This document shows, piece by piece, positions 1 to 20,409 of a stretch of DNA of 29,652 bases (positions are counted from its first letter, which is position 1; the number at the start of each line of letters is the position of its first letter). This stretch comes from a virus: positions 1 through 29,652 of the IMG/VR virus record IMGVR_UViG_3300046006_002872, one strand, 5' to 3'. The notes beneath the pieces are model-generated. The model made no database searches, was not told the DNA's origin, and was given only the letters and a program-made list of their open reading frames with translations. A program made the position numbers and the translations under genes.

Positions 1-193
1 AACAACTAGTTAGTTTCCACGATTTATTATCTCCGTGTAATCCTCTTATTACATTTTGTCTAGATGATGATATTTTATCATGTTTAAAATTTAGTTTTGG
101 TTCAAAGTCATCCTGATTCCAAATAGTTAATAAATCGCCCCTAAAATCAGTAAAAATATCTGGCTGATATACGGTAACTTCTGGAAATATCAT
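1..193 (-). CDS. RmlC-like sugar epimerase/isomerase (cupin), N-terminal part
   Basis: The reading frame opens with ATG at 193 and runs off the left edge, giving 64 residues. It contains DFRGDLLTIWN at the N-terminus and then SSSRQNVIRGLHGDNKSWKL. This is the layout of dTDP-4-dehydrorhamnose 3,5-epimerase (RmlC) and related 3,4-ketoisomerases, where a DFRG segment is followed by S-x-S-x-x-x-V-x-RGLH. The family acts on nucleotide-linked deoxysugars in the cytoplasm. The start overlaps the stop of the upstream GT10-like gene as ATGA, so it is the last visible gene of the glycosyltransferase operon. It probably supplies or tailors a sugar used by those transferases. Epimerase and ketoisomerase cannot be told apart because the catalytic C-terminal part is outside the window. 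Confidence 0.7.
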   Translation of the reverse strand, partial: MIFPEVTVYQPDIFTDFRGDLLTIWNQDDFEPKLNFKHDKISSSRQNVIRGLHGDNKSWKLTSC

Positions 194-1044
194 AACGTAG
201 TAAATATATTTTTAAACAACCAATCTTCTGTCACTGCATATTGTTTTGCTAATTCTAAATTTTCATATGCATATTTTAATTTTAATTCATATAATTCTGG
301 AGTAAGTGATGCCAAAATATCATCTAGTTCATCAGTTGAGGTAAAACAAATAAAACCATCGGTATTAAAAAATTCTGATATATTGGGACAGCCCCAATAT
401 ATTGGTATTGTTCCTACAACTAAACAATCTACAATTTTTTCGGTAAAATAATTTAATTGATTCGAATTTTCTATTATTATTGAAAACTGATAATCTTGTA
501 ATCCATCTTCTTTGTTGACTAATGGTCTGGCAGATCCATGTCCATAATAATCAATCCCAGATGATTGAAATCTATTTGCAATTACGTGTCGTAATCGATG
601 TCCAGTTAATTGTTGTCGTCCCGAGTATATCATCGAAACTAACTTTGTTTTGTCATGAATTTTCCAATTGGATTCATTAATCCAACAGCCGCCAATTGGG
701 TACATTTTAGTTTTCTCCGGATAGGTTTTTAATAAGTCAGGATCATGGGTTAGTACAAAATCATAATGATCTTTATATTGATCAAACGTATTATAAAAAT
801 GAGGATGTAATTCTCGAGACTCCATTAACCAACCAATCTTGTATTTACTATTAATTCTGGTAGCAGTGCCTGAATTTATAAAACTATCAGTAAACAATGT
901 AATTCCTTGCCAATTACTTTGATTTTTTACATATGTTGTATAGTTTGTGCTTTTAGAGAAAACGTGTGAATATTTGCCATCAGCTGTTACTAAATGATCA
1001 AATGCCGTATCAAATAAGTTAATTTCCATAATTATGTTATTCAT
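190..1044 (-). CDS. GT10-like (alpha-1,3-fucosyltransferase family) glycosyltransferase
   Basis: A 284-residue protein whose C-terminal half has the GT10 signature. Residues 184-219 read roughly DYQFSIIIENS, then NYFTEKIVDCLVVGTIPIYWG, matching the family pattern of an acceptor/donor-loop F-x-x-x-x-ENS followed by Y-x-TEK and a G-x-x-P-x-x-x-G turn. GT10 enzymes transfer fucose from GDP-fucose to a GlcNAc-type acceptor. No signal peptide or membrane segment is seen, so a cytosolic enzyme is likely. The start overlaps the end of the GT11-like gene by 8 bases, and a second ATG at residue 6 is possible. GT10 and GT11 members side by side suggest a fucose-like branched glycan, but the donor sugar is inferred from family only. 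Confidence 0.75.
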   Translation of the reverse strand: MNNIIMEINLFDTAFDHLVTADGKYSHVFSKSTNYTTYVKNQSNWQGITLFTDSFINSGTATRINSKYKIGWLMESRELHPHFYNTFDQYKDHYDFVLTHDPDLLKTYPEKTKMYPIGGCWINESNWKIHDKTKLVSMIYSGRQQLTGHRLRHVIANRFQSSGIDYYGHGSARPLVNKEDGLQDYQFSIIIENSNQLNYFTEKIVDCLVVGTIPIYWGCPNISEFFNTDGFICFTSTDELDDILASLTPELYELKLKYAYENLELAKQYAVTEDWLFKNIFTTL

Positions 1045-1837
1045 TAATACATACCCAATTTTCTGGGAACATATCTATTGTTGATAAATTATTAATAGTT
1101 ATAGGCCCAAACCATCGATTGGGATATATTACTGTTTTAGTTGGATTACAATTAAGCCATGCACCCCACCAACTAAAAGTGGAATTTGCTATAATATTAT
1201 GTTTGCATAAAGACATCAAGTATAAATCTTTTATATCAGATTCTGATTCTATGAATATATAATCATTTCCAACAAACACAGTTTTACACCAATCAATATC
1301 ATCACTAAATACTAAATACCTTGTTCCTGCAGGAAATTGTTTAATCGCATTTAAGTAATACGAAATAGATAAATTATGATGAAAATCCGATAATGTTAAA
1401 TAGTCGCCTCGACGTATATGCAATGAAACGGTGTTTTCTTGTAATACTGGATATTTGTTATTTAATTTAGTTAATATAATATCATTTGGTGCAAATAATT
1501 TTTGTATTTCATTATCAAAATCATCAAAATATTTATAAGATTGATAATATCCATGTAATATAATATTAGATGCAATATTGACAATTGGCGTATATCGAAA
1601 ACTTGGTTCGTGAAATTTAATTAGATTATGGTTATGAGTATATGGGATAAGTTTATTAAAAATTGTATCTAGATAATCACTCGGTGGTTTTGGTCTTGAA
1701 TGTCCATGGCCAATTTTTGTATATTGTGTATTGATTAAATATTCAGATTCTGTTCTTTTTGATAATGCATATCCTGCTGCAATTTGGAATAGCATATTGC
1801 CTAAACCACCCATTAATTTCGAAGTAATCATTTTCAT
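1037..1837 (-). CDS. GT11-like (alpha-1,2-fucosyltransferase family) glycosyltransferase
   Basis: A 266-residue protein with the two hallmark GT11 motifs. The N-terminal LMGGLGNMLFQIAAGYAL (residues 8-25) is the usual start of the family. The HIRRGDY box (residues 140-146) is the GDP-fucose binding motif shared by alpha-1,2 and alpha-1,6 fucosyltransferases. NSTFSWWGAWL (residues 218-228) is the third conserved block. Length is slightly below the usual 280-300 residues but all core motifs are present. The product would add fucose, or a related 6-deoxyhexose, in alpha-1,2 linkage. It sits in the five-transferase operon between a GT2 and the GT10-like gene. Either the first or third methionine could start it, since related proteins begin just before the KLMGGLGN motif. 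Confidence 0.85.
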   Translation of the reverse strand: MKMITSKLMGGLGNMLFQIAAGYALSKRTESEYLINTQYTKIGHGHSRPKPPSDYLDTIFNKLIPYTHNHNLIKFHEPSFRYTPIVNIASNIILHGYYQSYKYFDDFDNEIQKLFAPNDIILTKLNNKYPVLQENTVSLHIRRGDYLTLSDFHHNLSISYYLNAIKQFPAGTRYLVFSDDIDWCKTVFVGNDYIFIESESDIKDLYLMSLCKHNIIANSTFSWWGAWLNCNPTKTVIYPNRWFGPITINNLSTIDMFPENWVCINE

Positions 1838-1842
1838 ATCAT

Positions 1843-2466
1843 CTATAACGTATCGTAATAGTTATTTTGTTTTTCTTGTTTATCTATTGTTTTCGGGTGA
1901 TGTAAACAATACTCTTCTTTCGAAGGTAATGTAGACATTATTTTATAACCGGCTAACACCTCATGTACTTTATTTTTCCATTTAATTTCTGGTTTATTTT
2001 GCCATATGCGCCATTGATAGTCGGGGAAATTTACCCATCCATTTGAATTAACATTCCATCCCCATTGTTGAATATGTTTATCTGTTAATCCTTCTACTGT
2101 GTTAATTCGAGGTACTAATAACACATCTACTGTTGGGTTACCCTCAATAATATCAGGTAAATATTCTAGTAATGTTTTAGTAGGTAGTTCATCTGCATCT
2201 ATTTGAAAAATATAATCTCCTGTACAGTAGCTAGTTAGTTTATTTTTCCAATTAGCAAAATGGCCTTCAAACTCACTCTTGTGCCACATAAATTCTCCAT
2301 TTACGCTATGTGACCGGAGAAATGTTTCAATATCAGCATTTCCGTTTTTAGAGTCATATAAGATAACAATGTCATCCTGTGCTCGTTTATTCTTAAGTAA
2401 GTGATGCACAAGTCTTTGAATTTCAATAAACTCATTACATACCGTAACGGCATATGTTATTTTCAT
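1843..2466 (-). CDS. Family 2 (GT-A fold) glycosyltransferase
   Basis: A 207-residue protein opening with MKITYAVTVCNE, the first beta strand of GT2 enzymes. DDIVILYDS follows at residues 31-39, and a DxD-type metal/nucleotide-sugar site QIDADE lies at residues 89-93. The C-terminus has an aromatic and basic segment with the pattern WRIWQNKPEIKWKNKVHE, typical of short family 2 transferases. It is shorter than many GT2 proteins, close to the minimal GT-A domain. The start codon overlaps the stop of the upstream GT-B enzyme. Donor and acceptor sugars cannot be deduced. It probably takes part in assembly of the same glycan as its neighbours. Confidence 0.75.
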   Translation of the reverse strand: MKITYAVTVCNEFIEIQRLVHHLLKNKRAQDDIVILYDSKNGNADIETFLRSHSVNGEFMWHKSEFEGHFANWKNKLTSYCTGDYIFQIDADELPTKTLLEYLPDIIEGNPTVDVLLVPRINTVEGLTDKHIQQWGWNVNSNGWVNFPDYQWRIWQNKPEIKWKNKVHEVLAGYKIMSTLPSKEEYCLHHPKTIDKQEKQNNYYDTL

Positions 2467-3698
2467 ATCTTTTGCAATTTAGGTAATTTTAATTCAATAG
2501 CCTTTGGAATCTTGTTAACGCCGTCATCAATAACACTCAACACAGTTTCATATGTTTTAGCAACAGCTGTACGAGTAAATGTAGTATTAACAAAATATCG
2601 TTGACGTTTTGCTAATTCACACCATTTTTTATAATTTTTTTGTACATCTTGCATCATAGCCATGGCTTGCCCGTAATCAGGAGTAAACCATTTTGCTTCA
2701 GCAATTAAAAATTCATTTGCAGCAGACGGATGAATTGGTGTCAATTGTCCCGGTAAGGCACATATAAAATCTTTTTTCAAAAAGTCTGCTTGGCCGGAAT
2801 AATGTGGAGCAATGATTGGCTTGCTGGTAGTTGAAAACTCTAATAATGGTCTTCCAAATCCTTCTGCTTTTGTAAAAGAAACCATTGCTTTAACTTTTGG
2901 ATGATTATACAATGCATTCATTTCTTCATCTGTTAATTCTCCATGAACTAAGTATACATTTGGTAATTTTGCATTAGGAAACATATCACGGAATTGATTG
3001 ATTCTATTTTCAATATCCATTTTGTCCATAATACTATATGTTGCGCCACTAGTTTTCATGATTAAAGCAGGTGGATTTTTAGTATCTTTAAATGTATTGA
3101 AGAAACAATGCAACATACCACTAATATTTTTGCGGTCTTCTCCAGCATCACCTTGCAACCAATGTCCTACCGATAGGAATGCAAATGATTCTTCAATTGA
3201 ATTTAAGTCTGGTATAGAAGCTGTAATTGATTTGTTGTTGTATATGGTTTCATCAAAATATTCTGGGACTACTTCTATAGGCGTCGTAATTAATTTGTTC
3301 TTTTGTTTTGCTGTGTTTTCAAATACTGCTTTAGTAAATTCAGACGGTACAATAATTAACTGCATTGCATTAAGATTATCGATCCATGCTTCTGGACAAA
3401 TATCTCCTTCGGTGCCGGCAGTAACTCCAATATTATATTTTCCAACCGGTTGAAATTCATTTGGCACTGATACTTGAATCCAAACTTCAGGCTGTTCATT
3501 TAATGGCAATGCAATTATACGTAATTGTAAATCTACGGAAATTGGATATGTCATTGGAGTATGTCCCCATGGCAATGAAACTAGTTTTACGTCCCATTCA
3601 GATCCTCGTTGTTCAATAATATTTGTTATAATTTCACGCGCGTGATGTCCATAACCTGATTGTGTCGCTACTGGCGACGCTATAACTACTTTTCTCAT
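2463..3698 (-). CDS. GT4-like (GT-B fold) glycosyltransferase
   Basis: A 411-residue two-domain transferase. The N-terminal Rossmann half contains GYGHHAREI (residues 15-23), the acceptor-side glycine loop seen in group 1 transferases. The C-terminal half carries FLSVGHWLQGDAGEDRKN (about 174-191) and then VSFTKAEGFGRPLLEFSTTS (273-292). The latter is the E-x7-E motif of GT4 that contacts the nucleotide sugar. No membrane segments are evident. Start and upstream stop overlap as ATGA, indicating translational coupling to the larger GT4 gene. Its last residues (ELKLPKLQKI) resemble the first residues of that upstream enzyme (MELPKLQKF), which hints at a shared origin. Substrate unknown. Confidence 0.75.
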   Translation of the reverse strand: MRKVVIASPVATQSGYGHHAREIITNIIEQRGSEWDVKLVSLPWGHTPMTYPISVDLQLRIIALPLNEQPEVWIQVSVPNEFQPVGKYNIGVTAGTEGDICPEAWIDNLNAMQLIIVPSEFTKAVFENTAKQKNKLITTPIEVVPEYFDETIYNNKSITASIPDLNSIEESFAFLSVGHWLQGDAGEDRKNISGMLHCFFNTFKDTKNPPALIMKTSGATYSIMDKMDIENRINQFRDMFPNAKLPNVYLVHGELTDEEMNALYNHPKVKAMVSFTKAEGFGRPLLEFSTTSKPIIAPHYSGQADFLKKDFICALPGQLTPIHPSAANEFLIAEAKWFTPDYGQAMAMMQDVQKNYKKWCELAKRQRYFVNTTFTRTAVAKTYETVLSVIDDGVNKIPKAIELKLPKLQKI

Positions 3699-5188
3699 TG
3701 TGCTACTATTCCTGTTCGTTCATATTTAATTGTTTGTGTTTTAGTTACAGTGTATAACGGTCTAAATTCTCTATTCATTGCAAATAAATCGCGATACATT
3801 GAAATCATTTTTTGTCCCATTTGTTCTGCCGTTAAACCATTAGCTAATGCCCATGTTCTTCCTTCGAACCCACACGCTGCACGTTTTTCTTGAGAAAGTT
3901 CGTACCAATATGCAATTGCGTCTGCAACATCTTCATATTTTGCGCGGTCATCAAAGATATATGGTGTTTGCGGTGATCCTTGCAAACTTCTATTGCTAGG
4001 AAATACTGGTTTAACCCATATACCATGTTTCTTGTATTTGCCGGTATGGTTAGTTGCAAAATCGCCATCGAATCGAAGCCATTCTCCGTTTTCATCTTCA
4101 AATCCACATTGATCCTGCAATCCTCCTGTTACATTGTTAATAATCGGTGTTCCTGACAACATTGCTTCAGTTGAACTAAGTCCCCATCCCTCATTAGACC
4201 CAATGTTTATTACTACATCTGCAACATTATACATTGCATTAAGATCAGGTGTTGATAATTTTTGTTCTGAAAAAATTACTTTACAATTAGGAGCTATAGC
4301 TTTCCAAACAGCCTTAAGGTCTGTTCCATTTTCATCAACCGGTTGTGTATGCATTAATAATGCTACTTTGCTTTGTTGATCGGTTGGTAACAAATCTACA
4401 AATGTTTTGAATGCTAAAATAACATCGCCTGGTTGTTTTCTTCTTATGTTTCGATTATTCCACATTACAACAAAATCAACTTTGTTTGCATCTTTAATTT
4501 GTTTGTGCATTGCAATATATCCGGCATCGTTTGAATCTAATGGTTTAAACATGTTATGATTCAATCCGTGAGGTACATATCCGGTTAAAACAGAGTTCCA
4601 TTTTTTTATTGCCGGTAAATCGTCTGATTCATCATAATTAATCACCCCAAATCCGTTCTGTTTAAGAACTTCTCTATGTATATTATCTGATTGTTTGCTT
4701 ATTCCCATAATCATATCGCAGCTACCGTAAAAAGGAGCATTCCACATAGGATATGGTAAATCATCCCAAATAGAATAATATGTAATTGGAATATTGAATG
4801 TTGTTTTTATTTCATGTTCGATTGCATATAACCATGTCCAATAACGAGGATCTGTAAAGTGTAGGATTGCGTCTGGTTGTTCTCGATTGATAATTGCAAA
4901 AAGAATATTTCGATCTCCATAACCGTTCCATGGAATCAATTTAACAGATGCATCTTCAATGCCTGTTTCTTTGACGACTTCAGCAGAAAGGTCAAATGCT
5001 TGCCCTGCATCAGGATGTTGCATTGCGGCTCCTAATTGAACCCAATCAAATTCTTTAACTGTATTAAAAATAATTTCTTTGCTGATTGTTCCGATACCGG
5101 ATGGTAAACGAAAATCATCGCCTAACAATAAAATTTTCTTTTTTGTTGGTTTGTTCGGATCGAACTTTTGTAATTTCGGTAATTCCAT
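3695..5188 (-). CDS. GT4-like (GT-B fold) glycosyltransferase, first gene of glycan operon
   Basis: A 497-residue glycosyltransferase. The N-terminal domain begins KKKILLLGDDFRLPSGIGTI (residues 17-34 region), with the glycine-rich acceptor loop. The C-terminal domain has an ADVVINIGSNEGWGLSSTEA segment (323-342), which then reads AMLSGTP. This is the conserved E-x7-E nucleotide-sugar motif of family GT4. The start at 5188 has a good ribosome site (AAGGAATAG, about 9 bases upstream), one of the clearer ones in the window. A 42-base gap upstream contains a TATAAT box and marks this as the first gene of the operon running to the left edge. The sugar and acceptor are not deducible. Confidence 0.75.
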   Translation of the reverse strand: MELPKLQKFDPNKPTKKKILLLGDDFRLPSGIGTISKEIIFNTVKEFDWVQLGAAMQHPDAGQAFDLSAEVVKETGIEDASVKLIPWNGYGDRNILFAIINREQPDAILHFTDPRYWTWLYAIEHEIKTTFNIPITYYSIWDDLPYPMWNAPFYGSCDMIMGISKQSDNIHREVLKQNGFGVINYDESDDLPAIKKWNSVLTGYVPHGLNHNMFKPLDSNDAGYIAMHKQIKDANKVDFVVMWNNRNIRRKQPGDVILAFKTFVDLLPTDQQSKVALLMHTQPVDENGTDLKAVWKAIAPNCKVIFSEQKLSTPDLNAMYNVADVVINIGSNEGWGLSSTEAMLSGTPIINNVTGGLQDQCGFEDENGEWLRFDGDFATNHTGKYKKHGIWVKPVFPSNRSLQGSPQTPYIFDDRAKYEDVADAIAYWYELSQEKRAACGFEGRTWALANGLTAEQMGQKMISMYRDLFAMNREFRPLYTVTKTQTIKYERTGIVAQ

Positions 5189-5207
5189 TTGTAACTATTC
5201 CTTTTTT

Positions 5208-5236
5208 ATTATAACTTTTATATAAATATATCAACC
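5208..5236 (-). promoter_or_regulatory. Probable promoter of the glycosyltransferase operon
   Basis: Minus strand shows GGTTGA, 17 bases, TATAAT, about 19 bases ahead of the start at 5188 and its ribosome site. It can also be read as GTTG-N18-TATAAT. The -35 part is weaker than in the other promoters of this window and overlaps the end of the SLOG-like gene. Confidence 0.45.
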
Positions 5237-5635
5237 CAATATAACAACCGGTTTTTTTAGTTTATTTATGTTGTTGAATGCTGTTTTTAATACTGGATCC
5301 AATGTATCTTCATTTGTTAGTATCAACATATGATCACATTGCTCTGCAATAAGTTTCATGCGGTGATGCAACTGAGAAAAATGATATGGCTTTCCATAAT
5401 ATGAATCAGGCATTGCTGAATACATGTTGCGTCCTGAAAATGATGGATTATATTCTTTGTATTGTATCCCAAACTCTAATGAATATTTTCTAACCATACT
5501 ATTTGCTCCTTCAGTGCCTCCTGCACCAACAACTATTAAATCTTCGTTAAATCGTTTTTTTAGTTCCTGAAGTGTTTGTTGTACTTTGCGTTTGTTTTGC
5601 CAATCTGTATTTCCAATTATTGCAATTTGTGTCAT
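5231..5635 (-). CDS. SLOG/DUF2493-like nucleotide-binding protein
   Basis: A 134-residue single-domain alpha/beta protein. It opens with a beta strand and polar turn (IAIIGNTDW), then has VVGAGGTEGANSMVRKYS at about 36-53, and ends with VVILG. This layout resembles the YspA/DUF2493 branch of the SLOG superfamily, where G-x-x-x-GAD binds a nucleotide or nucleotide derivative. Here the Asp is replaced, giving EGANS. SLOG proteins act as sensors or processors of nucleotide ligands in phage and defence loci. It is the last gene of the operon with the Fe-S nuclease and overlaps the preceding small gene as ATGA. The family call is by pattern only. Confidence 0.5.
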   Translation of the reverse strand: MTQIAIIGNTDWQNKRKVQQTLQELKKRFNEDLIVVGAGGTEGANSMVRKYSLEFGIQYKEYNPSFSGRNMYSAMPDSYYGKPYHFSQLHHRMKLIAEQCDHMLILTNEDTLDPVLKTAFNNINKLKKPVVILG

Positions 5636-5844
5636 TTCTTTTCATATAAAAATTTAACATACTTTGGCATAAACCCATAAATTGTACGTAACATGTGTTC
5701 CAACAATGTTTTATTTTCTTTGTGATTCGGATCAGTTATGTTTGTGCATAATACATAATTCATATTGCATGTATGTTTGCCTGGCCAGGTACTATGATTA
5801 TTCATTTCAAATTGATAAACATAAACATGTTGGTGCTTGTACAT
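5632..5844 (-). CDS. Small protein of unknown function (70 aa)
   Basis: A 70-residue ORF filling the space between the Fe-S nuclease and the SLOG-like gene, and overlapping the latter's start as ATGA. This supports it as a real coupled gene. It is rich in His, Asn and Tyr, with two Cys (CNMNYVLC) and a basic C-terminus (KYVKFLYEKK). No known motif, signal or membrane segment is recognised. The ribosome site is poor. Real gene likely; function unknown. Confidence 0.55.
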   Translation of the reverse strand: MYKHQHVYVYQFEMNNHSTWPGKHTCNMNYVLCTNITDPNHKENKTLLEHMLRTIYGFMPKYVKFLYEKK

Positions 5845-5862
5845 ATATTATTATAATGAATT

Positions 5863-6819
5863 TTATTCACGAATCCTAGCATCTTTAGGACAATTTTCAT
5901 AATCTGTTTTGAATGCACAATACTTGCAATTTTTATCGCCTTTACCTGATATTGCCATATATTTTTTTTCGGCATTGCGATTTCCGTCCAAATCAAAACA
6001 TGATTCAACAAATGCATCAATTTGTTTTTGTACTTTGCGTTGTGTTACTGTTCCTGATGCAGGTTTAAAGTTTTGCACTCGCTTTTGTGGAAACATTGAT
6101 TCTTCAATCATCTTTCGTTTCACAATAAAGAATTCAACATCAATTTTTTCTATAGGCGTACCAAATTGTTGTGCAAAGTAATTTTTATATGCAATTAGCT
6201 GTGCTGCTTTTAAATTGTCTGCTTTTTGATATTTGTTCCAACCTTGTCGGGATGTTTTTATATCATATATTTCAATGTTGCCGGTAGGAACGTGTCTAAT
6301 AACAACATCAATAAACCCATACCAAAATACAGATGGATTTGCTTTTGATGCTGGAGTACATAGTTCCATTTCAATTGCTACTAATTCATAATTTTTGCTA
6401 GAAAAATATTGTGAACGTCTTTTTGCAAACCAATCAAAAATGGCAACGCCATCTTCTAAATATTCTGCCATTTGCAAGGCAGTTGAAAAATGAACTCCTC
6501 CTGACTCTGCAACACATCGAGCATATTCTTCGCGAAGTTTATTTGTCAATACTTCTTGAAAATTTATGTTTTCTGCTTTCTTAACTGAATCTGTATACAA
6601 TACCGTTAGAAAGTGTTGAAATGTTTCGTGAAAGGCAGTTCCAAAACATGTATCAATTGATGCTTGGAATGGGGCTAGTCCATCAATGTATGCCAACTTC
6701 CAGGATAGGGGACATCGTTCATACATGGACCATTGAGAATATGATATCTTTCTAGGTACGGTTGCTGCATCTCGTATTGATAAACGATATATAGGAGCTA
6801 AATAATTTCCGGATTTCAT
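5863..6819 (-). CDS. PD-(D/E)XK nuclease with predicted Fe-S cluster (RecB/Cas4-like)
   Basis: A 318-residue nuclease of the PDDEXK_1/RecB class. The N-terminus has YSQWSMYERCPLSWKL (27-42), the usual entry of RecB-type nucleases. The catalytic set is visible as H64 (AFHETF), D171 (GFIDVV), D186 and K188 (IYDIKTS), followed by the QxxxY motif (Q207, Y211). C36 plus C298, C301 and C310 (CKYCAFKTDYENC) match the one-plus-three cysteine arrangement that holds a 4Fe-4S cluster in AddB and Cas4. The protein likely processes DNA ends during recombination, replication or packaging, or degrades host DNA. It is translated with the upstream YubB-like gene through an ATGA overlap. It stands alone without a helicase domain and is not next to cas genes. 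Confidence 0.85.
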   Translation of the reverse strand: MKSGNYLAPIYRLSIRDAATVPRKISYSQWSMYERCPLSWKLAYIDGLAPFQASIDTCFGTAFHETFQHFLTVLYTDSVKKAENINFQEVLTNKLREEYARCVAESGGVHFSTALQMAEYLEDGVAIFDWFAKRRSQYFSSKNYELVAIEMELCTPASKANPSVFWYGFIDVVIRHVPTGNIEIYDIKTSRQGWNKYQKADNLKAAQLIAYKNYFAQQFGTPIEKIDVEFFIVKRKMIEESMFPQKRVQNFKPASGTVTQRKVQKQIDAFVESCFDLDGNRNAEKKYMAISGKGDKNCKYCAFKTDYENCPKDARIRE

Positions 6820-7382
6820 ATGGTTGGAATAATATTGTTAATACATGTATCTAACAATTCTTGTTTTTTGCTAATTATATCATTATAGAATTCATCAGTA
6901 AAACAATCATCCTCATCTTTATATTCGGAGCCTTCAAAAAATTCTTCATCTGGATTAAAATATTCAATATTGCGTGATTGTTGATTTGATGCACATGCAC
7001 CTACAAAGCCAAATCCTTCATCTTCAAATGTTCCTTGTATTTTTGCACCTGGGTATTCAATACGAAGAAAATCAGATAATTTCCAAAATAATTTTTCTGG
7101 GAAGTCCCATGCAGTTGTCCATGAAATATGCATAGTAGTTTCAGACTGATCTACATCATCAAAATAAATCCATTTAGCACCTAAATTTTCAATGTAGTAT
7201 GCATTGGTATCTTGTTTGTCTGGATATAAATTATCTAACATGATATTGCAACATGCTTCAATGCGTGCACCAAACGTTGTATTTTCAATAGTAGGAGTAT
7301 GTCCAATCCATTCCGAAAATTTTGCTGTATCTTGCTGATTTATAAATTCAATGTCTAATTGAGTATAAACATGATTTGCCAT
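6816..7382 (-). CDS. Hypothetical protein resembling the YubB ferredoxin-like domain
   Basis: A 188-residue acidic protein. The middle region GAKWIYFDDVD, then SWTTAWDFPEKLFWKLSDF and FEDEGFGFVGA, resembles the YubB/DUF1281 ferredoxin-like domain of phage and plasmid proteins, which have GTKWD, a TAWSPP block and a Y-x-DEG block in the same order. The C-terminus is strongly acidic (FEGSEYKDEDD). No enzymatic motif is seen and the family has no firmly known function. It is the first gene of an operon with the Fe-S nuclease and has a promoter 13 bases ahead. There is no clear Shine-Dalgarno, only AAAAAAGTT before the ATG. Confidence 0.55.
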   Translation of the reverse strand: MANHVYTQLDIEFINQQDTAKFSEWIGHTPTIENTTFGARIEACCNIMLDNLYPDKQDTNAYYIENLGAKWIYFDDVDQSETTMHISWTTAWDFPEKLFWKLSDFLRIEYPGAKIQGTFEDEGFGFVGACASNQQSRNIEYFNPDEEFFEGSEYKDEDDCFTDEFYNDIISKKQELLDTCINNIIPTI

Positions 7383-7498: not shown

Positions 7499-7921
7499 TT
7501 ATTGTCTTGATGTAAATATAATTAGTCGCCCGCCTCCGGCTCTGTCTAAAATTTCAATATAGCGTATATTAGATTGATTTGCTGCATTGATAATATCGCT
7601 AATATCATTACCTCGAAGCTCATATGGTGCTACTAATGCAGTATGTTGATTAATTCCTAATTTTTTTAATGCTGACGCATATTGTGATGGGAGATAATTA
7701 ACATCTAAGTTATCAAACCAATCTACAGAATCTTTACCTATTAGTTTAATAAATTGTTTTACTTTATTCCCGGTGGATCGTTTAATACCATCAATTCCAG
7801 TTCCGCCTTTAAGGACTGATTCGGAATCATCTGGGTATCCATTGTTATTTTGATCTTCATCTTCGTTTAAGTTTTTCGTACCAAATCGGCGCATATTTTC
7901 TGCTAAGATGTTTTTTTTCAT
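7499..7921 (-). CDS. Putative capsid-targeted internal protein with EF-hand-type loop (140 aa)
   Basis: A 140-residue protein. Residues 1-20 form a leader, MKKNILAENMRRFGTKNLNE, that contains two L-x-E sites (LAE at 6-8, LNE at 18-20). Thirteen of these residues plus flanks recur in the unrelated protein at 14606. By analogy with T4 internal proteins, such a leader would direct the protein into the prohead and be removed by the prohead protease. A perfect 12-residue EF-hand-type loop follows (D23, N25, N27, G28, D31, E34). The rest is a small alpha/beta domain of unknown type ending GGGRLIIFTSRQ. It is monocistronic, with its own promoter, a strong AAAGGA ribosome site and a terminator. Packaging is inference; no homolog is recognised for the mature domain. 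Confidence 0.55.
   Translation of the reverse strand: MKKNILAENMRRFGTKNLNEDEDQNNNGYPDDSESVLKGGTGIDGIKRSTGNKVKQFIKLIGKDSVDWFDNLDVNYLPSQYASALKKLGINQHTALVAPYELRGNDISDIINAANQSNIRYIEILDRAGGGRLIIFTSRQ
7861..7903 (-). repeat. 43-bp leader repeat, copy 1
   Basis: These 43 bases are identical to 14830-14872 and encode AENMRRFGTKNLNE in both genes. Homology stops abruptly on both sides and the rest of the two proteins is unrelated, so the leader moves as a module. Confidence 0.9.
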
Positions 7922-7952
7922 AATACTATCCTTTAAATTTTTATATAAATAT

Positions 7953-7981
7953 AGTATATAAAATTTTATTGCATATTCAAA
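7953..7981 (-). promoter_or_regulatory. Promoter of 7499-7921 (TTTGAA-17-TATACT)
   Basis: Minus strand TTTGAA, 17 bases, TATACT. The element begins right after the TAG stop of the upstream gene. A 31-base stretch containing TATTTATATAAAA and AAAGGA separates it from the ATG at 7921. Confidence 0.7.
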
Positions 7982-11023: not shown

Positions 11024-12286
11024 TTAAAATGTAAAGTATTTATTGAAATTTTCGGCATCGGTGGTTGATATACTACTTCCACCAAACTTTTTATATGTTT
11101 TAATATATTTTTCATATGTTTGTAATGCTGCGTCAGGATCGGCAAACATTTCATGCAGTGACAAGATAACATCATACAAGTCTCTTGGTATTACTGTTTC
11201 TAGCAATTCTACATGGCTGTCTACTAGTTGATTGATTTCTTCTGCACATTGCACATATAAATGCACATTGTGAACAACCATTCTAGGCATAGCTTCTTGT
11301 GAATATCGATCTAATCCAGCATCTGTTTTTCCTCCTAGCAAATCATATGTAAAGTCGGTGCATGCTGGACAATGTAATGCACATGGTACATGTTGTGATA
11401 GATCAATAGATACTTCTCCAATTTTTCCTTGACGAATATGAGCTTGTCTTCTATATTCAGCATTTTTAGGAAAATACAATTCCGAAAAGGTTTGTGTTTT
11501 ATAATTTGCTGAATGAAGATATGTTCCAAATACCGGATATTGTCCTGGCGATGATGAATCCGTTGTTACATAGATTCTATTGCCATAATTTTTATTCATT
11601 AATTTTTGCAATGTTGCTAGAATAAAAAAGTCGGATATTTTGCTAATACCCAATAAGTGCAAATATTCTAGTCTAGGATTTTCAAATGTTTTTTCTTTGA
11701 GCATCAATGCAACCGCAAACATAAAGTCTACTAATTTTTGTGGACCTCCAATTGCCCAACCTTGAAAATCAAAATGTTTAAATTTATGATACCACCAAGT
11801 ATATTCATCAGTGTTAGAGCCTTGCAACATGTTAAGGTATTTTGTCTTACCGCTTTGATGTTTTTCAAAATAAGCAAAATTGTCATAACTAATGTCAGCA
11901 CATTCTGCAAATTTATTTCGATATTTTGTTTTAGGTGGAATATCTAAGTTTGCTGCTACATCACTATTAGCTTCTAACCAATGAAATATTTTTTCGCGCA
12001 ATTCGTTGCTATATGGTAATGCTCCTGTTGCTATTTGGTATCCTCCTGAATCTCCAAATACTAGAACATCTTTTTCTAAGCCCATCGTGTCTCGGAAATC
12101 CATTTTCTTGTAATGGTGTCCTGCTGTGATTAGAAAATATGGGTGCCTCCACTTATCTGGATATCTTGAGTCGAAGAACTTTACCGGGTCTCCATTTTCA
12201 AATTTCATATCTTTCTTGAATGCCGAGACCATTGAGCCTGCAGACAACGACGGAAAATATATGAACCGCTTATCTTGTTCTTTCAT
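11024..12286 (-). CDS. dpdA: TGT-family guanine transglycosylase, probable phage DNA transglycosylase (DpdA-like)
   Basis: A 420-residue protein of the tRNA-guanine transglycosylase superfamily. FGDSGGYQIATG (77-88) matches the D-SGG-F/Y-Q active-site motif, with D79 at the general-base position. GWAIGG (176-181) is the substrate-pocket glycine motif. TTDSSS (241-246) has D243 where the nucleophilic Asp is expected. C302, C306, C309 and H339 form C-x3-C-x2-C-x29-H, almost the canonical zinc motif C-x-C-x2-C-x29-H, followed by NVHLYVQ. DpdA members swap guanine in DNA for a 7-deazaguanine made by FolE, QueD and QueE, all encoded elsewhere in this window. A tRNA substrate cannot be excluded from sequence alone, but the phage context and pathway genes favour DNA. 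It overlaps the preceding glycosyltransferase gene by 17 bases. Confidence 0.82.
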   Translation of the reverse strand: MKEQDKRFIYFPSLSAGSMVSAFKKDMKFENGDPVKFFDSRYPDKWRHPYFLITAGHHYKKMDFRDTMGLEKDVLVFGDSGGYQIATGALPYSNELREKIFHWLEANSDVAANLDIPPKTKYRNKFAECADISYDNFAYFEKHQSGKTKYLNMLQGSNTDEYTWWYHKFKHFDFQGWAIGGPQKLVDFMFAVALMLKEKTFENPRLEYLHLLGISKISDFFILATLQKLMNKNYGNRIYVTTDSSSPGQYPVFGTYLHSANYKTQTFSELYFPKNAEYRRQAHIRQGKIGEVSIDLSQHVPCALHCPACTDFTYDLLGGKTDAGLDRYSQEAMPRMVVHNVHLYVQCAEEINQLVDSHVELLETVIPRDLYDVILSLHEMFADPDAALQTYEKYIKTYKKFGGSSISTTDAENFNKYFTF

Positions 12287-13307
12287 TGTTTTTATATTCT
12301 TTTAGTAAATTAATTAATCTTGTTGCTGAAAAAAATCGGTCATGTAAATAATTTGTTAATTTAGCAATATCATTTGTTAAGTCTTGTTGTTCATATTTTA
12401 ATATTGCAGCCACAGCCTCATTTACTGAATCTGCATGTTTAAACATAGGATGATACATTTCCATATATGATAATCTATTAGGAACAATTGTACATGCTCC
12501 TGCACAAGCTGATTCATACATTGAAATTCCCAATGTTTCTTGATCTGCAAATGATACTGCAAACTTTGCTCTTTGAAGAAGTTCATGATATTGTGTTTTA
12601 GTCAAATTTAGATCCATTGCTACAATAAATTGATAATGTGCTAATTCTGGCTGCGATGCTAATTCTTGAAACAAATCTAATCGTTTTTCAGGTGCTATTC
12701 GGTGCGGGAAAACAATAATATTTTCTTTTTCATTAAATGGTTTAGGCGTAATCATATTATGGGTATATTCCATTGGCCAGCCTGTTTGATCAAACGTTGA
12801 ATTTAAAAATACATCATATGTTTTACATATCATTTGAAAATGTGCTGCGGTTGCAATCCAATTATGATCTAGTGCTCCAATAAAGGCTTGTTCAGCGTGC
12901 CTAATCCATGGTTTATCTCCTACGAGCCGACCTAAAAAATCATTCGGGTCATATGAACCCGCGTGCCAAAGTCCGTGCATTACAACCGGAATATTTAGAA
13001 GTTCACTCATATATTTTACATTGATAATAGCTGGGTGCCATGCATCTGTAAAAATGATATGGTCTCCTGCGGTAATCTTACCTAATGTAAATAATTCAGA
13101 CAACTTGTGAAGCTGTGTTGCTTTGTACATGTTAGTACCACCAAAGTTCAAAAATGCACCAGGTGTTGTTGATTCTGGAATTGTATGATCTCCTTCTATA
13201 ACTTGAACATCAAATCCATTATCACGCAATAATTGTGGAACATGTGTCTTCCACTCGCAAGTATATCGTGTCGGTATTGATTCTAAGTCTACTAAAAATA
13301 TTTTCAT
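12270..13307 (-). CDS. GT4-like glycosyltransferase coupled to dpdA
   Basis: A 345-residue GT-B enzyme starting at the ATG at 13307, with GAAAG upstream. A TTG four codons earlier is less likely because the upstream stop TAA lies one base before this ATG. The C-terminal domain has IVFPHRIAPEKRLDLF (198-213) and ETLGISMYESACAGACTIVP (257-276), the GT4 E-x7-E region. The N-terminal domain is unusual, with FTDAWHP and MHGLWHAGSYD in place of the common glycine loop. It is separate from the five-transferase operon and overlaps the dpdA-like gene by 17 bases. Either it glycosylates a virion or cell-surface target, or it acts with the modified base. The sequence does not decide. Confidence 0.7.
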   Translation of the reverse strand: MKIFLVDLESIPTRYTCEWKTHVPQLLRDNGFDVQVIEGDHTIPESTTPGAFLNFGGTNMYKATQLHKLSELFTLGKITAGDHIIFTDAWHPAIINVKYMSELLNIPVVMHGLWHAGSYDPNDFLGRLVGDKPWIRHAEQAFIGALDHNWIATAAHFQMICKTYDVFLNSTFDQTGWPMEYTHNMITPKPFNEKENIIVFPHRIAPEKRLDLFQELASQPELAHYQFIVAMDLNLTKTQYHELLQRAKFAVSFADQETLGISMYESACAGACTIVPNRLSYMEMYHPMFKHADSVNEAVAAILKYEQQDLTNDIAKLTNYLHDRFFSATRLINLLKEYKNNERTR

Positions 13308-13308
13308 A

Positions 13309-13659
13309 TTATCTTTCAATTATTGCTCCATTCTCCCAATCTTCCCAAACTTCTACTTTATACAACGTTGGAAATGATTCTAACAACCATTCTCCAATCA
13401 TTTCACACGACATTGATCCAAATTCTAATACATTTGTTTCAGATCCAGAAAATCCAATTCGCAATCCTTTTTGTATTTTTCTGTTTAACAATATAAATTC
13501 CTCATCGCGATCAGTATGTGTTACGTTTGCATAACAACGGAATCCAAACATATGTCTATGTCTATCCGATAAGAATGCTACTTGTGGAAATATTTCTTTT
13601 GCATCAGGCCAATTATGAAATCCTTCAATGTTAAATGTTACTACTACGCTGTATTTCAT
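13309..13659 (-). CDS. Second T-fold (QueD/PTPS-like) protein
   Basis: A 116-residue protein resembling 6-pyruvoyltetrahydropterin synthase/QueD. H15 (GFHNW) with H34 and H36 (RHRHMFGF) match the three zinc histidines (H...H-x-H). The C-terminus CEMIGEWLLESFP, then LYKVEVWED, matches the family end (S/T-x-E-x-I-A-x-W ... V-x-V-x-E). The QueD catalytic Cys four residues before the H-x-H is absent (L30). It lies in the operon that ends with dpdA, clamp and clamp loader, while the main queD lies near 20 kb. It could be a pathway enzyme acting after QueD or QueE, for example on 7-carboxy-7-deazaguanine, or a folate/biopterin enzyme. The exact reaction is unknown. Confidence 0.55.
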   Translation of the reverse strand: MKYSVVVTFNIEGFHNWPDAKEIFPQVAFLSDRHRHMFGFRCYANVTHTDRDEEFILLNRKIQKGLRIGFSGSETNVLEFGSMSCEMIGEWLLESFPTLYKVEVWEDWENGAIIER

Positions 13660-14057
13660 TTTAATGAATCTGCTATTAATTGTTTGTATTTAGTTGTTGA
13701 CCATCCATGGTCTCTGTTTAGGTATTTTATAGGAATGTTTAATTCATAACCGGTATAAGTTTTTCCTACATAATCATCGCCTAAGAACCTAACATCAAAG
13801 TCTCCTTTAACTAGAGCTTCATATAGATCAGCTTCTGTTTGATATGGAAATACAAAATCAACTTGCCTAAGTGAATCAAGTATCTTTACTCGGTCGCTCC
13901 AATGTAATATTGGTTTAAGTTTTTCTGGTCGTTCAACGGATGGATCTTCATGTAGACACACTATTAATCTATCGCAGTGCTTTTTGCATTCATCAAACAT
14001 GGCAATGTATCCTGGATGTATTACATCAAAGTTTCCTGCTATAACTCCTCTTATCAT
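13656..14057 (-). CDS. Cytidylyltransferase-like protein (TagD family)
   Basis: A 133-residue single-domain nucleotidyltransferase of the glycerol-3-phosphate/ethanolamine-phosphate cytidylyltransferase type. GNFDVIHPGYI (8-18) is the nucleotide-binding entry motif and RDHGWSTTKYKQLI, near the C-terminus, is the counterpart of the RTxGISTTxI motif. Length fits TagD (about 130). The usual HxGH is HPGY here, so the second catalytic histidine is replaced by Tyr, which could lower or change activity. If active it would make a CDP-activated alcohol or sugar. Start and stop overlap both neighbours as ATGA, so it is tightly coupled to the unknown 14054 gene and the T-fold gene. Confidence 0.75.
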   Translation of the reverse strand: MIRGVIAGNFDVIHPGYIAMFDECKKHCDRLIVCLHEDPSVERPEKLKPILHWSDRVKILDSLRQVDFVFPYQTEADLYEALVKGDFDVRFLGDDYVGKTYTGYELNIPIKYLNRDHGWSTTKYKQLIADSLK

Positions 14058-14485
14058 TGTTTATCTCTATCAAATTTATACATATCTGGGACAACATGTT
14101 GCATATTATGTACCGTTGTACAATACAAAGAATAATCTGCATATACAACCTTAATGCTGTCTGATTGTTTTAACAATGCGGCATCAGTACAATTTAACAT
14201 TAACAAGATGTGTGCGCGAATTCGAATCATTGGTGGTATCTTTTCTAACATACCGGGAGTAACTTCGATTGTTATGAAACTAGTATCAGAAATCATTCTG
14301 AATACCGTAGCCCATCGATCATCGTCGATCAATTGGGCGGTTGCACCGGAACAAAAATAAACGTGTGGATTTTTTCCTGCTACAATTCTGTCTAGTGCTT
14401 TAATGTCTGCAATAAACAATGTTTCGATATCAGTGTAACGGCCTTCTATTTCTTTGCCGTACCAATGTGTTTTATAACCAATCAT
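14054..14485 (-). CDS. Hypothetical protein heading the dpdA-clamp operon (143 aa)
   Basis: A 143-residue protein that I do not recognise. It shows alternating hydrophobic strands and helices (TLFIADIKALDRIVAGKNP, IRAHILLMLNCTDAALL) suggesting a small alpha/beta domain. There are four Cys but no clear metal motif, and no signal or membrane segment. Its ATG lies only five bases after a TATAAT box, so it heads a long operon with the cytidylyltransferase, T-fold protein, glycosyltransferase, dpdA, clamp, dUTPase and clamp-loader genes. It overlaps the cytidylyltransferase start as ATGA. Confidence 0.6.
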   Translation of the reverse strand: MIGYKTHWYGKEIEGRYTDIETLFIADIKALDRIVAGKNPHVYFCSGATAQLIDDDRWATVFRMISDTSFITIEVTPGMLEKIPPMIRIRAHILLMLNCTDAALLKQSDSIKVVYADYSLYCTTVHNMQHVVPDMYKFDRDKQ

Positions 14486-14605: not shown

Positions 14606-14896
14606 TTATTTTCTAGTTAATTCGATCCATGGACCAAATTTTTCATAAACATGGGTAACAGTTTTTAACGCTTCATCTGCAGATACATTATGTTTATCCA
14701 TTAAATACTGAACCGCTTCATCGGCGTTTTCTCCGTCTTTATCTTTTCTTGCAAATTCTAAAATAGTAAGAAAATCAACCATCGCATCAGTTTTTCCTAA
14801 TATACTTTGTAAAAAATTACTGAACATTCCTTCGTTTAAGTTTTTCGTACCAAATCGGCGCATATTTTCTGCAAGTACGGTTTTTAATTTTATCAT
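14606..14896 (-). CDS. Putative capsid-targeted internal protein (96 aa)
   Basis: A 96-residue protein with the leader MIKLKTVLAENMRRFGTKNL, then NE. It has L-x-E sites at residues 8-10 (LAE) and 20-22 (LNE). The first ten residues match the MIKLKxLLxE leaders of two other proteins here, and residues 9-22 match the leader at 7921. The mature part (from residue 23) is a helical acidic domain (FLTILEFARKDKDGENADEA, DEALKTVTHVYEKFG) of unknown type. The T4 analogy predicts delivery into the capsid and cleavage by prohead protease. It lies between DNA polymerase and the next operon, with strong ribosome site AAGGA and a terminator after it. Confidence 0.55.
   Translation of the reverse strand: MIKLKTVLAENMRRFGTKNLNEGMFSNFLQSILGKTDAMVDFLTILEFARKDKDGENADEAVQYLMDKHNVSADEALKTVTHVYEKFGPWIELTRK
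14830..14872 (-). repeat. 43-bp leader repeat, copy 2
   Basis: Identical over 43 bases to 7861-7903. It encodes the AENMRRFGTKNLNE part of the leader of the 96-residue protein. Confidence 0.9.
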
Positions 14897-14944
14897 AATT
14901 TTCCTTATTTACATATAAATATAACACAAAAAAAAAACAATTTG

Positions 14945-17464
14945 TTATCCAAAGTTAAAAAACTTTTTTGCATTGTTATTTTCTGGTAATGCACCCCAAC
15001 TCATTGCTGCATAGAAATCATTGAATTTGTTGCTTAGGTCTGCCGTGAACATTTTATTGTGATCAATGTATTGTTCTGCAAATGCAACTATTTCGGGTGG
15101 ATCTAAATAACCTCGTAATGCAATAGTTTCAAACCCGTACGGATTGCCTACTAAATAGCCCCACTTTACTTTTTCGCCGTCTGATATAGGTAATATATCC
15201 GTAGTTAATGTACTCAATAAATCATTAAAATTAATTGCGGCTTTTACGTGTGCTGTCGATCCTTTTATATAACCGGTAAACGGTTTACGTTTTTTGATAT
15301 ATTTAGATAATTCTTTAACACTTGAATTCTTCATTACATTCAATACTTTGGAACTTTTAATGTTATTTTTAAAGTTATGTATCAATGTTGAAGTATCTTG
15401 CTTGTTTCTTCCTTTAAGGATATACCACAATGTTTCTTTCATTATCTTTTTGAAATCTTCCGGGAAACTGGATCTAACAACATCTAATCCTTTTACATCC
15501 AATTTATCCGTAGATTTGCCTTCTTTGAATATAACCCATTGGGCATATCTTTTTTTGGCAATCCATAAACCGGATTTTGCAATATATTCTTGTTTAATTT
15601 GGAATCGATGTGCGGTTGTATTATGGAATACTTTTGCATATTGGTCATACATTGTATTAACCGTTGTTTGTATTTCAGATGCAATTGCATTAGTTTGTTC
15701 AATCATGAATGTTTCATCGTTAGTGTCACATCCAGGAAATCGGTGTTCAATTAATGGCAAACTGCTACAAAAGGTTGAATCCGTATCAGTGTAAAATGCA
15801 AATTCTGCTTTGTCTCCGCTATCATTAATAAAGTGGTCAACTCCCAATTCTTTTTTGTAATAGTTATTAATAACCTTAGCTGAAAATTTTATTACACTTT
15901 GACCTACTGCTGTAATAGCTCCGGCATTATCTAAATCATAGAAACGAAATGTTTTAAGTCCTAAAACTCCATAAAATGAATTAAGCAATACTTTTTGTGT
16001 TAATTGCAATGCATCATAAAATTTATATTCTTCTGTACCAAATTTAAATGTGTCACGCTTATCTTTAAAGATAACACGTTCATTAAACCATTTTTCTAGA
16101 ATAGTTGGAAGAAACCCTCGTTGTTCATTGTTATATGTAGCGCCGTTGCTAGCAATACTATAATTGTGTTGTGCCAACCATGTTTTAACATTATCAACTT
16201 GTTGTGTTTTACCAGAAGCCAATGTTATTGTAGCCGGCATTGAATCTGAGTTTAACATGCATTCTTGATTCCAATTTTCTACAACTCCTACTTTAGTTTC
16301 TGGAGATATATTTGCAGTCATAATGATGCTTGGATACAATGAAGTTAAATCTAAGTCATATATCCATTTATACAGGCCAGGTACAGGTGCCATTACATAT
16401 GCACCAGCTAATGCATCTGCCATTGTTTCTTCTTCAATAAATCTAAATTGCTTGTTCGGTGCAACAAATCCATTGCGTTTTAAATCAACAATGGCAGCAC
16501 CATCCAAATATTTGGATGCATAATATACATCTTCATATGGAACATGCCCTTTGTGACAAATCGATCTTGCTAAATTTAAAAGTTGAAGCTTTTCATCCAT
16601 TTCATAAACAAGATCAACATCCGTCATATTATAATATGCAAATTTATGAATATCTTGGGTAAACAATGTATCCAAGTCTCCATCATATTCAACTTTACCT
16701 CGATCCAATTCTTTTTTAGCAACTGTGTCTAATCGATAATTAGGTAGTTCGGTATATGTAAAGTTTTTATACAATTTAATGTAATCTAAACTAGAAACTC
16801 CAAGTATCTTCCATTTACCGGTTCTGCCTTGTTCTACTATGCCGGCAGGAGAAAATTTCTTGATTGCTTGTGCACCCAATACTTTTTTGCATCGGCCTAA
16901 CAAATAAGGAACATCATATCCGTCTGTATTCCACCCGGTTATAACTGTTGGTTGTATTTGTGCAAATATGTTGATAAATCTAGTTAATAGATCTTTTTCA
17001 TTGCGGAATATTTCTATTGCATATCCTTCGCCTTGTATTTCACGTTCTTTGATGCGACCTTGTTCGTCTAAGATCAATACTCTTCGATCTTTTCCTGCTT
17101 TATCATAATATGCAATCGAAGTAATTGCGGTGCGAACATCTTGTATTGTGCTGAAGCCATTTTCATCTTTTGCAGTTTCAATATCAAAAAAGAAATCTTT
17201 ATGTCCTTTAGACGGCTCATCTGATTCATAATATAAATCAATCAATGTTCTAACTTCTTCATTTAAGTCAGATTCATATGATTTAGGATTATCTCGATGA
17301 TTGCCAGGTACTTGATTCAATCGTGTTCCGTCAAGTGCTTGATATGTTCCATTTGGATTTGGTAAATATCCATATGCCTGAAAAGGAAATTTGCGATGTC
17401 CTAATTCATCATCCCAAACGTGCATGATGCCCGCTTTTTTATCATAACCGATTGCTTTATACAT
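14945..17464 (-). CDS. 43: Family B DNA polymerase, gp43-like
   Basis: An 839-residue replicative polymerase (T4 gp43 is 898). The 3'-5' exonuclease motifs are FFFDIETAK (91-99, D94 and E96), VITGWNTDGYDVPYL (174-188) and YYNMTDVDLVYEMD (277-290). Polymerase motifs are A, DLDLTSLYPSI (370-380), B, KVLLNSFYGVLG (491-502), and C, YTDTDS (558-563). The C-terminus is aromatic (ALPENNNAKKFFNFG) and probably holds the clamp-binding end. It copies the phage genome with the gp45-like clamp and helicase. Start and Hpt stop overlap as TAATG. It is the last gene of the operon that begins with folE. No intein or intron is seen. Confidence 0.98.
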   Translation of the reverse strand: MYKAIGYDKKAGIMHVWDDELGHRKFPFQAYGYLPNPNGTYQALDGTRLNQVPGNHRDNPKSYESDLNEEVRTLIDLYYESDEPSKGHKDFFFDIETAKDENGFSTIQDVRTAITSIAYYDKAGKDRRVLILDEQGRIKEREIQGEGYAIEIFRNEKDLLTRFINIFAQIQPTVITGWNTDGYDVPYLLGRCKKVLGAQAIKKFSPAGIVEQGRTGKWKILGVSSLDYIKLYKNFTYTELPNYRLDTVAKKELDRGKVEYDGDLDTLFTQDIHKFAYYNMTDVDLVYEMDEKLQLLNLARSICHKGHVPYEDVYYASKYLDGAAIVDLKRNGFVAPNKQFRFIEEETMADALAGAYVMAPVPGLYKWIYDLDLTSLYPSIIMTANISPETKVGVVENWNQECMLNSDSMPATITLASGKTQQVDNVKTWLAQHNYSIASNGATYNNEQRGFLPTILEKWFNERVIFKDKRDTFKFGTEEYKFYDALQLTQKVLLNSFYGVLGLKTFRFYDLDNAGAITAVGQSVIKFSAKVINNYYKKELGVDHFINDSGDKAEFAFYTDTDSTFCSSLPLIEHRFPGCDTNDETFMIEQTNAIASEIQTTVNTMYDQYAKVFHNTTAHRFQIKQEYIAKSGLWIAKKRYAQWVIFKEGKSTDKLDVKGLDVVRSSFPEDFKKIMKETLWYILKGRNKQDTSTLIHNFKNNIKSSKVLNVMKNSSVKELSKYIKKRKPFTGYIKGSTAHVKAAINFNDLLSTLTTDILPISDGEKVKWGYLVGNPYGFETIALRGYLDPPEIVAFAEQYIDHNKMFTADLSNKFNDFYAAMSWGALPENNNAKKFFNFG

Positions 17465-19575: not shown

Positions 19576-19577
19576 AA

Positions 19578-20406: not shown

Positions 20407-20409
20407 AGT

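Follow-up and report, generated by a model that had tools for sequence, protein, structure and literature searches.

Megavirinae and chloroviruses encode nucleotide-sugar enzymes together with glycosyltransferases (GTs); the glycan genes of Megavirinae form clusters of clade-specific content at a mostly conserved place in the genome, and on chlorovirus capsids the core of the glycan is conserved and the outer sugars differ from virus to virus (PMC10117803, PMC9614988, PMC7826918). Among phages GTs are widespread (PMC12619734). Pelagimyophages and cyanomyophages possess a host recognition cluster, a hypervariable island rich in GTs and sugar genes which lies between VrlC and gp14 together with tail-fibre genes (PMC7029224). 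In mycobacteriophages (Freeman 2023) glycans are placed on the capsid or the tail tube, as reported in PMC12619734; two mycobacteriophages have two GTs each, and a sugar-synthesis cassette is not mentioned in the texts on them. Serotype conversion by prophage GtrABS is likewise a glycan change encoded by a phage, the Gtr side chain going onto the O-antigen of the host (PMC11990801). Here we describe a glycan operon at the left edge of IMG/VR virus record IMGVR_UViG_3300046006_002872, whose complete stretch of 29,652 nucleotides was analysed and is called the window, and the exchangeable cassette to which this operon belongs.

Like the gene clusters of Megavirinae and chloroviruses, the locus combines virus-encoded nucleotide-sugar enzymes with GTs. 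In contrast to these giant viruses of eukaryotes, however, it is found in phages of bacteria and is exchanged wholesale between near-identical genomes, and whereas the virion glycan has been shown for the giant viruses it is deduced here from the genes. With the island of the pelagimyophages it shares the hypervariability and the richness in GTs and sugar genes. The cassette has a nuclease/SLOG pair on its left and, in 11 of 13 records, a holin-like gene on its right; models for VrlC, gp14 and tail fibres were not searched. The divergence of the pelagimyophage island was gradual for the one pair compared (PMC7029224), whereas we observe complete replacement between cores that are 97-98% identical. 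A phage locus with fixed ends in which a whole glycan pathway is replaced between near-identical genomes was not found among the openly licensed papers listed in the literature searches, judged by title and opening of the abstract, and this combination appears to be new relative to the known virus glycan clusters and GT islands.

The explanation that we propose, with a probability of roughly 60%, places the operon at the conserved left end of a glycan cassette that is exchanged between phages and would provide a virion protein with a sugar chain made in the cytoplasm. The preliminary description of this DNA had correctly recognized an operon but had missed that it is only the left end of a larger exchangeable cassette. 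At least 593 stretches in the viral collection encode a relative of GT4a, the first gene of the operon, and the best 80 of these loci were compared. In them the order nuclease, 70-aa open reading frame (ORF), SLOG-like protein, GT4a, GT4b is kept with few exceptions, and the genes past GT2 vary from locus to locus. The nuclease served as an independent anchor: GT4a follows within 2.5 kb downstream in 58/58 loci, counting those with at least 1600 nt downstream out of 80 kept from 269 matches.

Both cassette ends are visible in 13 joined records, among them Flavobacterium phage immuto and Mel-JY01, which represent 11 distinct cassettes since the cassettes of G001/G005 and of G007/G009 agree gene by gene. 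The gene order is nuclease, GT4a, GT4b, GT2, 3-15 variable genes and a GT2-family gene of cluster c2. GT4b adjoins GT4a and c2 closes the cassette in all 13 records (in G002 c2 is shortened to 262 aa plus a 58-aa ORF), and GT2 is lacking from G012 only. The cassettes span 6.25-17.8 kb with 8-19 genes; their median intergenic distance is -4, and at 138 of 192 junctions the genes overlap or directly adjoin each other. Within the next 11 genes after c2 a holin-like gene (cluster c7) is found in 11 records and, after the cassette, an amidase-like gene in six; immuto and Mel-JY01 have neither. Among 131 cassette proteins, 79 Pfam families were matched, and the 25 families listed include NAD-dependent epimerase (19), GT2 (12), DegT (7), FkbM (4), NeuB (3), FdtA (2), C-methyltransferase (2) and cupin (2). 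These proteins come from the 171 cassette proteins of 11 records after removal of 33 left-end core genes and seven without a single-locus reference. NeuB occurs in six of 22 records, once weakly, and some cassettes therefore probably make nonulosonic-acid-like sugars. In another cassette type (L006) a GT10 domain is fused to a GT2 domain, and a third (L014) has a GT17.

Exchange was counted in 52 records that extend at least 3 kb past GT4b + 700 nt; the window is too short for this and is represented by contig L004. The 52 records hold 31 cassette types, of which 20 occur in a single record. Cores at least 97% identical are found in eight pairs. Five of these have the cassette in common and the other three share less than 15% of it, which amounts to two independent cases (L006/L004 with a core of 98.3% and a cassette of 9%, and L074 against both L067 and L071 with 97% and 0%). 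Conversely, L057/L083 combine a core of 78% with a cassette of 98%, and L009/L022 a core of 76.5% with a cassette of 92.7%. In 26 pairs with cores below 86% the common cassette is more than 5 points more alike than the core; the same few cassette types recur in many of the 26. The same is seen with the window: against L006 the identity is 98% from the nuclease to GT4b and 89% over part of GT2, after which nothing in the remainder of the window matches, and against L009 the left end is 79% identical but GT11-GT10-cupin 94%. When G007 (51.8 kb) is aligned with G002, by far the longest unmatched stretch is 11.8 kb in the cassette with 96% identity on either side; gaps elsewhere reach at most about 1.5 kb and the identity is mostly 86-99%. 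Since near-identical phages can carry unrelated cassettes and divergent phages a common one, the cassette is replaced wholesale between phages, recombination in the conserved flanks being the simplest mechanism.

The operon is cut by the contig end because the window is the entire virus record. Contig L004, 99.99% identical to the window across 9679 bp, extends past this edge and carries the operon onward with further sugar enzymes, for which the preliminary description had proposed to look. It adds the complete cupin (L004:9487-9984, 165 aa, PF00908 130.9 bits), two transketolase halves, an epimerase, an FkbM methyltransferase, a DegT enzyme and a GDP-mannose-dehydratase (GMD)-like enzyme, and terminates inside a further partial ORF which we take to be GT25-like. 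In G003, a related record with this cassette type, the right end holds a protein of GT4 type, one for rhamnan synthesis (RgpF) and one of the GT2 family.

The DegT protein of L004 is closest to ColD (phmmer E 1.5e-60), the GDP-4-keto-6-deoxymannose 3-dehydratase, and has a His-His pair aligned to that of ColD; ColD 3-dehydratases carry a His instead of the Lys. The GMD-like protein scores 395.5 bits with PF16363, over the cut-off. In spite of the GMD-like gene no clear GDP-fucose synthase was seen in L004; the 338-aa epimerase, looked at as the possible ColC epimerase/reductase of a GDP-colitose pathway, reached no NCBIfam model at 1e-10, and its sole match was a putative nucleotide-sugar dehydratase (E 5.6e-14). 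The kinship to ColD therefore makes a GDP-3,6-dideoxy sugar the likely product of the L004 cassette and suggests that this sugar may serve as donor instead of GDP-L-fucose. Perhaps the transketolase pair branches it. A GMD-like gene is present in 9/9 cassettes with GT10/GT11 and in 3/28 without, as counted on 53 loci, L166 and L218 being one record.

From these data we would infer the following order of transfer, sugars, acceptor and benefit. The core transferases GT4a, GT4b and usually GT2 would begin a short sugar chain. Most likely this chain is attached in the cytoplasm of the host, directly to a structural protein of the phage at Ser/Thr or another side chain. The variable genes would make unusual nucleotide sugars and attach them as the strain-specific outer part. 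For the window phage this outer part would probably include sugars that resemble fucose or colitose (GDP-linked 6-deoxy or 3,6-dideoxy sugars), transferred by GT11 and GT10. Everything from the core GTs up to the right flank is exchanged as a whole through recombination among related phages, and the particle could thereby change its sugar coat with the remaining phage nearly the same. The benefit may be an altered recognition of the particle, for example by hosts, grazers or other lectin-bearing agents.

Taken further, the cassette could be a true serotype locus, polymorphic, recombined at conserved ends and giving the particle a sugar identity that does not depend on the rest of the genome; we give this an even chance. 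If so, phage evolution would be shaped to a large part by diversifying selection on the glycans of the particle, and the locus would be a prokaryotic counterpart to the glycan diversity of giant viruses. Phage identity is usually framed by tail fibres and DNA modification; an exchangeable glycan locus at a fixed site would be a third, fast-changing trait, and close phage relatives may bear quite different sugar coats. The phage family concerned is large, as the number of GT4a relatives shows, and with immuto an isolated phage carries the cassette. The cassettes also form a natural collection of apparently soluble rare-sugar enzymes, for sugars of the nonulosonic-acid type, 3,6-dideoxy sugars and possibly branched sugars.

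The preliminary description had left open whether virion or host surface is decorated. Instead of a virion protein, soluble GTs could extend the lipooligosaccharide or a lipid-linked precursor of the host in the cytoplasm, which the host would then export, so that competing phages are excluded or re-adsorption of the progeny is prevented. The sugar genes and the layout of the cassette speak for this possibility, being similar to those of bacterial O-antigen and capsule loci: fixed ends and a variable middle, exchanged between backbones, and a lower guanine-plus-cytosine content of the variable part (in 12/13 joined records, the exception being immuto). Unlike such loci, however, the cassettes come without recognizable membrane machinery. 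A hydrophobic segment is present in two of 205 cassette proteins (one segment each) versus 149 of the 922 other proteins of the same joined records, and no polytopic protein was found in the 13 joined cassettes. The flippase PF13440 gave no match over the cut-off in any of 22 records, many of them fragments (control 14/14; PF01943 was not searched), the initiating polyprenol-phosphate transferase PF02397 did not exceed the cut-off in any of 20 records (control 9/14), and PF00953 did not in any of 22 (control 12/14), weak sub-cut-off matches with an in-frame stop occurring in two. The cassettes differ in this also from GtrABS, which combines a flippase in the membrane with a bactoprenol-linked transferase. 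Sugar-nucleotide and GT genes clustered without membrane carriers, as found here, are the arrangement expected of virion glycosylation. In the best 80 loci the three proteins downstream of GT4a with two or more hydrophobic segments are all homologues of the holin-like gene.

The distribution of GT4a also argues against an acceptor on the host surface. The protein is kept at 47% identity in Flavobacterium and Microcystis phages and is recognizable at 29% in the Rhodothermus phage RM378, where the GT4a relative is followed by a weakly GT4b-like protein (22%, E 7e-5) and then by a ribonucleotide reductase and not by a cassette. Phages of unrelated hosts, whose surface glycans should differ, thus have GT4a in common. 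Its best PDB match by profile is B736L of a chlorovirus (E 2.2e-14). The AlphaFold2 model of GT4a (predicted local distance difference test, pLDDT, 86.2) gave tied Z scores of 30.2-30.8 in VIA-align with MshA, sucrose-phosphate synthase, B736L and BshA, so that the fold names no acceptor. For the GT4b, c2 and GT11 profiles no PDB sequence matched at the limits used.

GT2 is most like peptide and protein glycosyltransferases. Its model (pLDDT 95.3) is closest to ThuS (Z 19.0) and SunS (Z 18.0), followed by RmlT (16.7) in VIA-align; ThuS and SunS are glycocin S-glycosyltransferases acting on peptides. By profile its closest PDB sequences are GmaR (E 5.3e-8) and then SunS (9.4e-4), and GmaR has no place among the best 50 structural matches in either VIA-align or Foldseek. 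We regard GT2 as a candidate initiating protein glycosyltransferase. GmaR is a flagellin GlcNAc-transferase (PMC9638930), and its resemblance to GT2, together with a weak similarity of GT4a to "GT4-conflict" below the cut-off, could also point to a host protein such as a pilin, flagellin, gliding adhesin or immune protein, whose glycosylation would alter adsorption or block defence. We regard this as very improbable, as the core GTs are common across hosts and none of the cassette genes looked at indicates a particular host protein. Because the cassette proteins look soluble, GT4a is found across hosts, and GT2 and GT4a are most similar to peptide/protein glycosyltransferases and to B736L, respectively, the evidence leans towards a phage-owned acceptor in the cytoplasm. 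Extension of a host glycan we consider unlikely, though it is the main alternative.

Several points weigh against a virion protein as acceptor or against the sugars proposed. Extension of a lipooligosaccharide in the cytoplasm needs no flippase either, and the GT islands of pelagimyophages have been interpreted as modifiers of the host O-chain (PMC7029224). In the best 80 loci a hydrophobic segment was found in 20 of 678 proteins downstream of GT4a. The alignment of GmaR with GT2 covers just 61 residues, and after ThuS and SunS the structural matches of GT2 include the polysaccharide and teichoic-acid enzymes RmlT, TarS and TarP; in such a crowded fold the models of GT2 provide a modest lead, and that of GT4a does not discriminate. 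The acceptor of B736L is itself described as unresolved (PMC9614988). The GMD-like protein stays below the curated GMD model TIGR01472 (397 versus 415 bits), and the Fisher value of 1.8e-6 for the link of GT10/GT11 with GMD overstates the association because few independent cassette types stand behind it. Acceptor, glycan and transcript alike are predictions from the genes of this locus.

Another possibility is that bases of the phage DNA are glycosylated as protection from restriction, as in T-even and glycan-hypermodified phages. GTs of phages are often DNA-modifying, and the title of a report from 2024 ascribes hypermodification of DNA with diverse glycans to virus GTs (cited in PMC12619734). 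With QueE, QueD and FolE encoded in the window, some kind of modification of its DNA is probable, and Mel-JY01 has a C5-cytosine methylase. This methylase, however, was found in one of the 22 records only, many of which are fragments. PF00303 is present in eight of the 22 records, and the four thymidylate synthases examined, those of three relatives and of immuto, have LGLPFN with the Asn diagnostic of dUMP enzymes, and not the signature of a dCMP hydroxymethylase. A search for Tet/JBP gave no match in the 22 records, but with the control equally silent it carries no weight. To our knowledge a hypervariable cassette of 8-19 genes exceeds what DNA glycosylation is known to require. DNA glycosylation was therefore rejected as the main function and we rate it as highly unlikely, although the genome in the window is incomplete. 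That the operon is more than expected for simple DNA glucosylation, as had been supposed from the start, agrees well with the whole pathways for unusual sugars, the hypervariable content and the lack of a hydroxymethyl-pyrimidine route in the relatives tested.

Returning to the operon in the window, all six ORFs of the preliminary description, five transferases and an RmlC-like cupin, were found head to tail on the minus strand (5188-2, Table 1), and their families are backed by Pfam and PHROGs. Neighbouring ORFs overlap by 4-8 nt at four of the five junctions, and GT2 and GT11 are separated by a 5-nt gap. These ORF coordinates fit a single predicted transcription unit. Six terminator-like sites were counted in positions 1-7000 versus 3.0 +/- 1.8 in shuffled sequences, two of them on the operon's own strand within its genes, and a promoter scan gave no excess (35 versus 41.9 in shuffles). 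An inverted repeat at 375-405 with up to 13 pairs lies within the GT10 gene and is terminator-like on both strands; it is probably there by chance.

GT4a matches PF00534 with 29.9 bits (cut-off 26.4) and phrog_2170 (E 7.5e-21). GT4b stays under the same Pfam cut-off with 23.8 bits but matches the phage GT family phrog_2170 (E 1.8e-17). GT2 matches PF00535 with 35.5 bits (cut-off 23.3), and its DAD motif is invariant in 18 aligned sequences. That both fucosyltransferase families are present, as originally noted, holds at the Pfam cut-offs. GT11 reaches 95.1 bits with PF01531 (cut-off 23.9; phrog_2644 E 4.1e-56) and HIRRGD is readable in its translation; its cluster has nine members among 83 sequences, that of the window included. 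GT10 reaches 40.7 bits with PF00852 (cut-off 23.9), its top three PDB matches are alpha-1,3-fucosyltransferases (E 6e-11 to 9e-11), and E-N-S...Y-x-T-E-K can be read in the translation. H-x-R-R-G-D (HxRRxD) and E-N-S...Y-x-T-E-K are motifs of GT11 and GT10, respectively. The pairing of GT10 and GT11 is not unique, since several cyanophages, such as S-SM2, S-T4 and S-SRM01, appeared in both protein searches. The cut cupin matches dTDP_sugar_isom PF00908 with 38.7 bits (cut-off 27). In the left flank the SLOG-like protein matches PF10686 (E 4.7e-6) with 26.8 bits, under the cut-off of 28.2, and the 70-aa ORF had no Pfam or PHROGs match at 0.01.

Table 1. Positions of the operon genes, of their left flank and of other features; positions refer to the window unless a contig is named.
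Feature	Position	Strand	Description
GT4a	3695..5188	-	497 aa; GT-B fold glycosyltransferase; conserved left-end cassette gene
GT4b	2463..3698	-	411 aa; second GT4-like glycosyltransferase; conserved left-end gene
GT2	1843..2466	-	207 aa; small GT-A glycosyltransferase; usual third left-end gene
GT11	1037..1837	-	266 aa; alpha-1,2-fucosyltransferase family; opens variable part
GT10	190..1044	-	284 aa; alpha-1,3/4-fucosyltransferase family; in variable part
Sugar-nucleotide 3,5-epimerase-like cupin, start only	2..193	-	64 aa; runs off contig
PD-(D/E)XK nuclease	5863..6819	-	backbone gene, left flank; PF12705 76.8 bits
70-aa ORF	5632..5844	-	left flank, conserved beside cassette; cluster of 71 members
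Small SLOG-like (YspA-related) protein	5231..5635	-	left flank, conserved beside cassette; cluster of 79 members
c14 examples	L093:17843-18562, L104:10052-10567, L109:12229-13545		Ser/Thr-rich repeat proteins
420-aa protein	11024-12286		no Pfam match
GT4-like protein	12270-13319		in second possible sugar module
Cytidylyltransferase-like protein	13656-14057		PF01467, phrog_7878

Cluster c14, which is found 3-11 kb past the cassette in 10/13 joined records, comprises Ser/Thr-rich proteins (25-33%) with TASFATTASYA-like repeats, a similar start and a variable end. They matched no named family, no PDB entry and no protein of named phages; as a guess, they might be the acceptor of the glycan or a small fibre.

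The use of Shine-Dalgarno sequences is modest (12 of 40 genes versus a background of 11.6%), and this together with the kinship to immuto fits a Bacteroidota host. Relatives from bacterial assemblies had the same phage gene order in 8/8 cases, which also counts in favour of a phage-owned acceptor; these are phage-like contigs in assemblies of mixed taxonomy, so no host follows from them. The ends of the G002 record (L093-L100) join without a break in the alignment against G007, and this record of 159.6 kb may be a complete, circularly permuted genome.

A second possible sugar module lies among the replication genes of the window at 11024-14485. At 18802-21398 QueE, QueD and GTP cyclohydrolase form a 7-deazaguanine precursor pathway as in immuto, whose annotation also has QueC, QueF and DpdA. 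For the insertion of the deazaguanine PF01702 (TGT) was uninformative, as its only matches, in three of the 22 records, were weak and below the cut-off, and even the DpdA annotated in immuto escaped it. A dispersed repeat of about 95 bp (7861-7953 and 14830-14923, plus strand, 83.5% alike) is located partly between ORFs and may be regulatory; it showed up in the comparison of L004 and L005 with the window. The window encodes a phrog_262 DNA polymerase at 14945-17464 and immuto an annotated family A polymerase near GroES at 37898-40231; possibly the polymerase is swapped in related phages.

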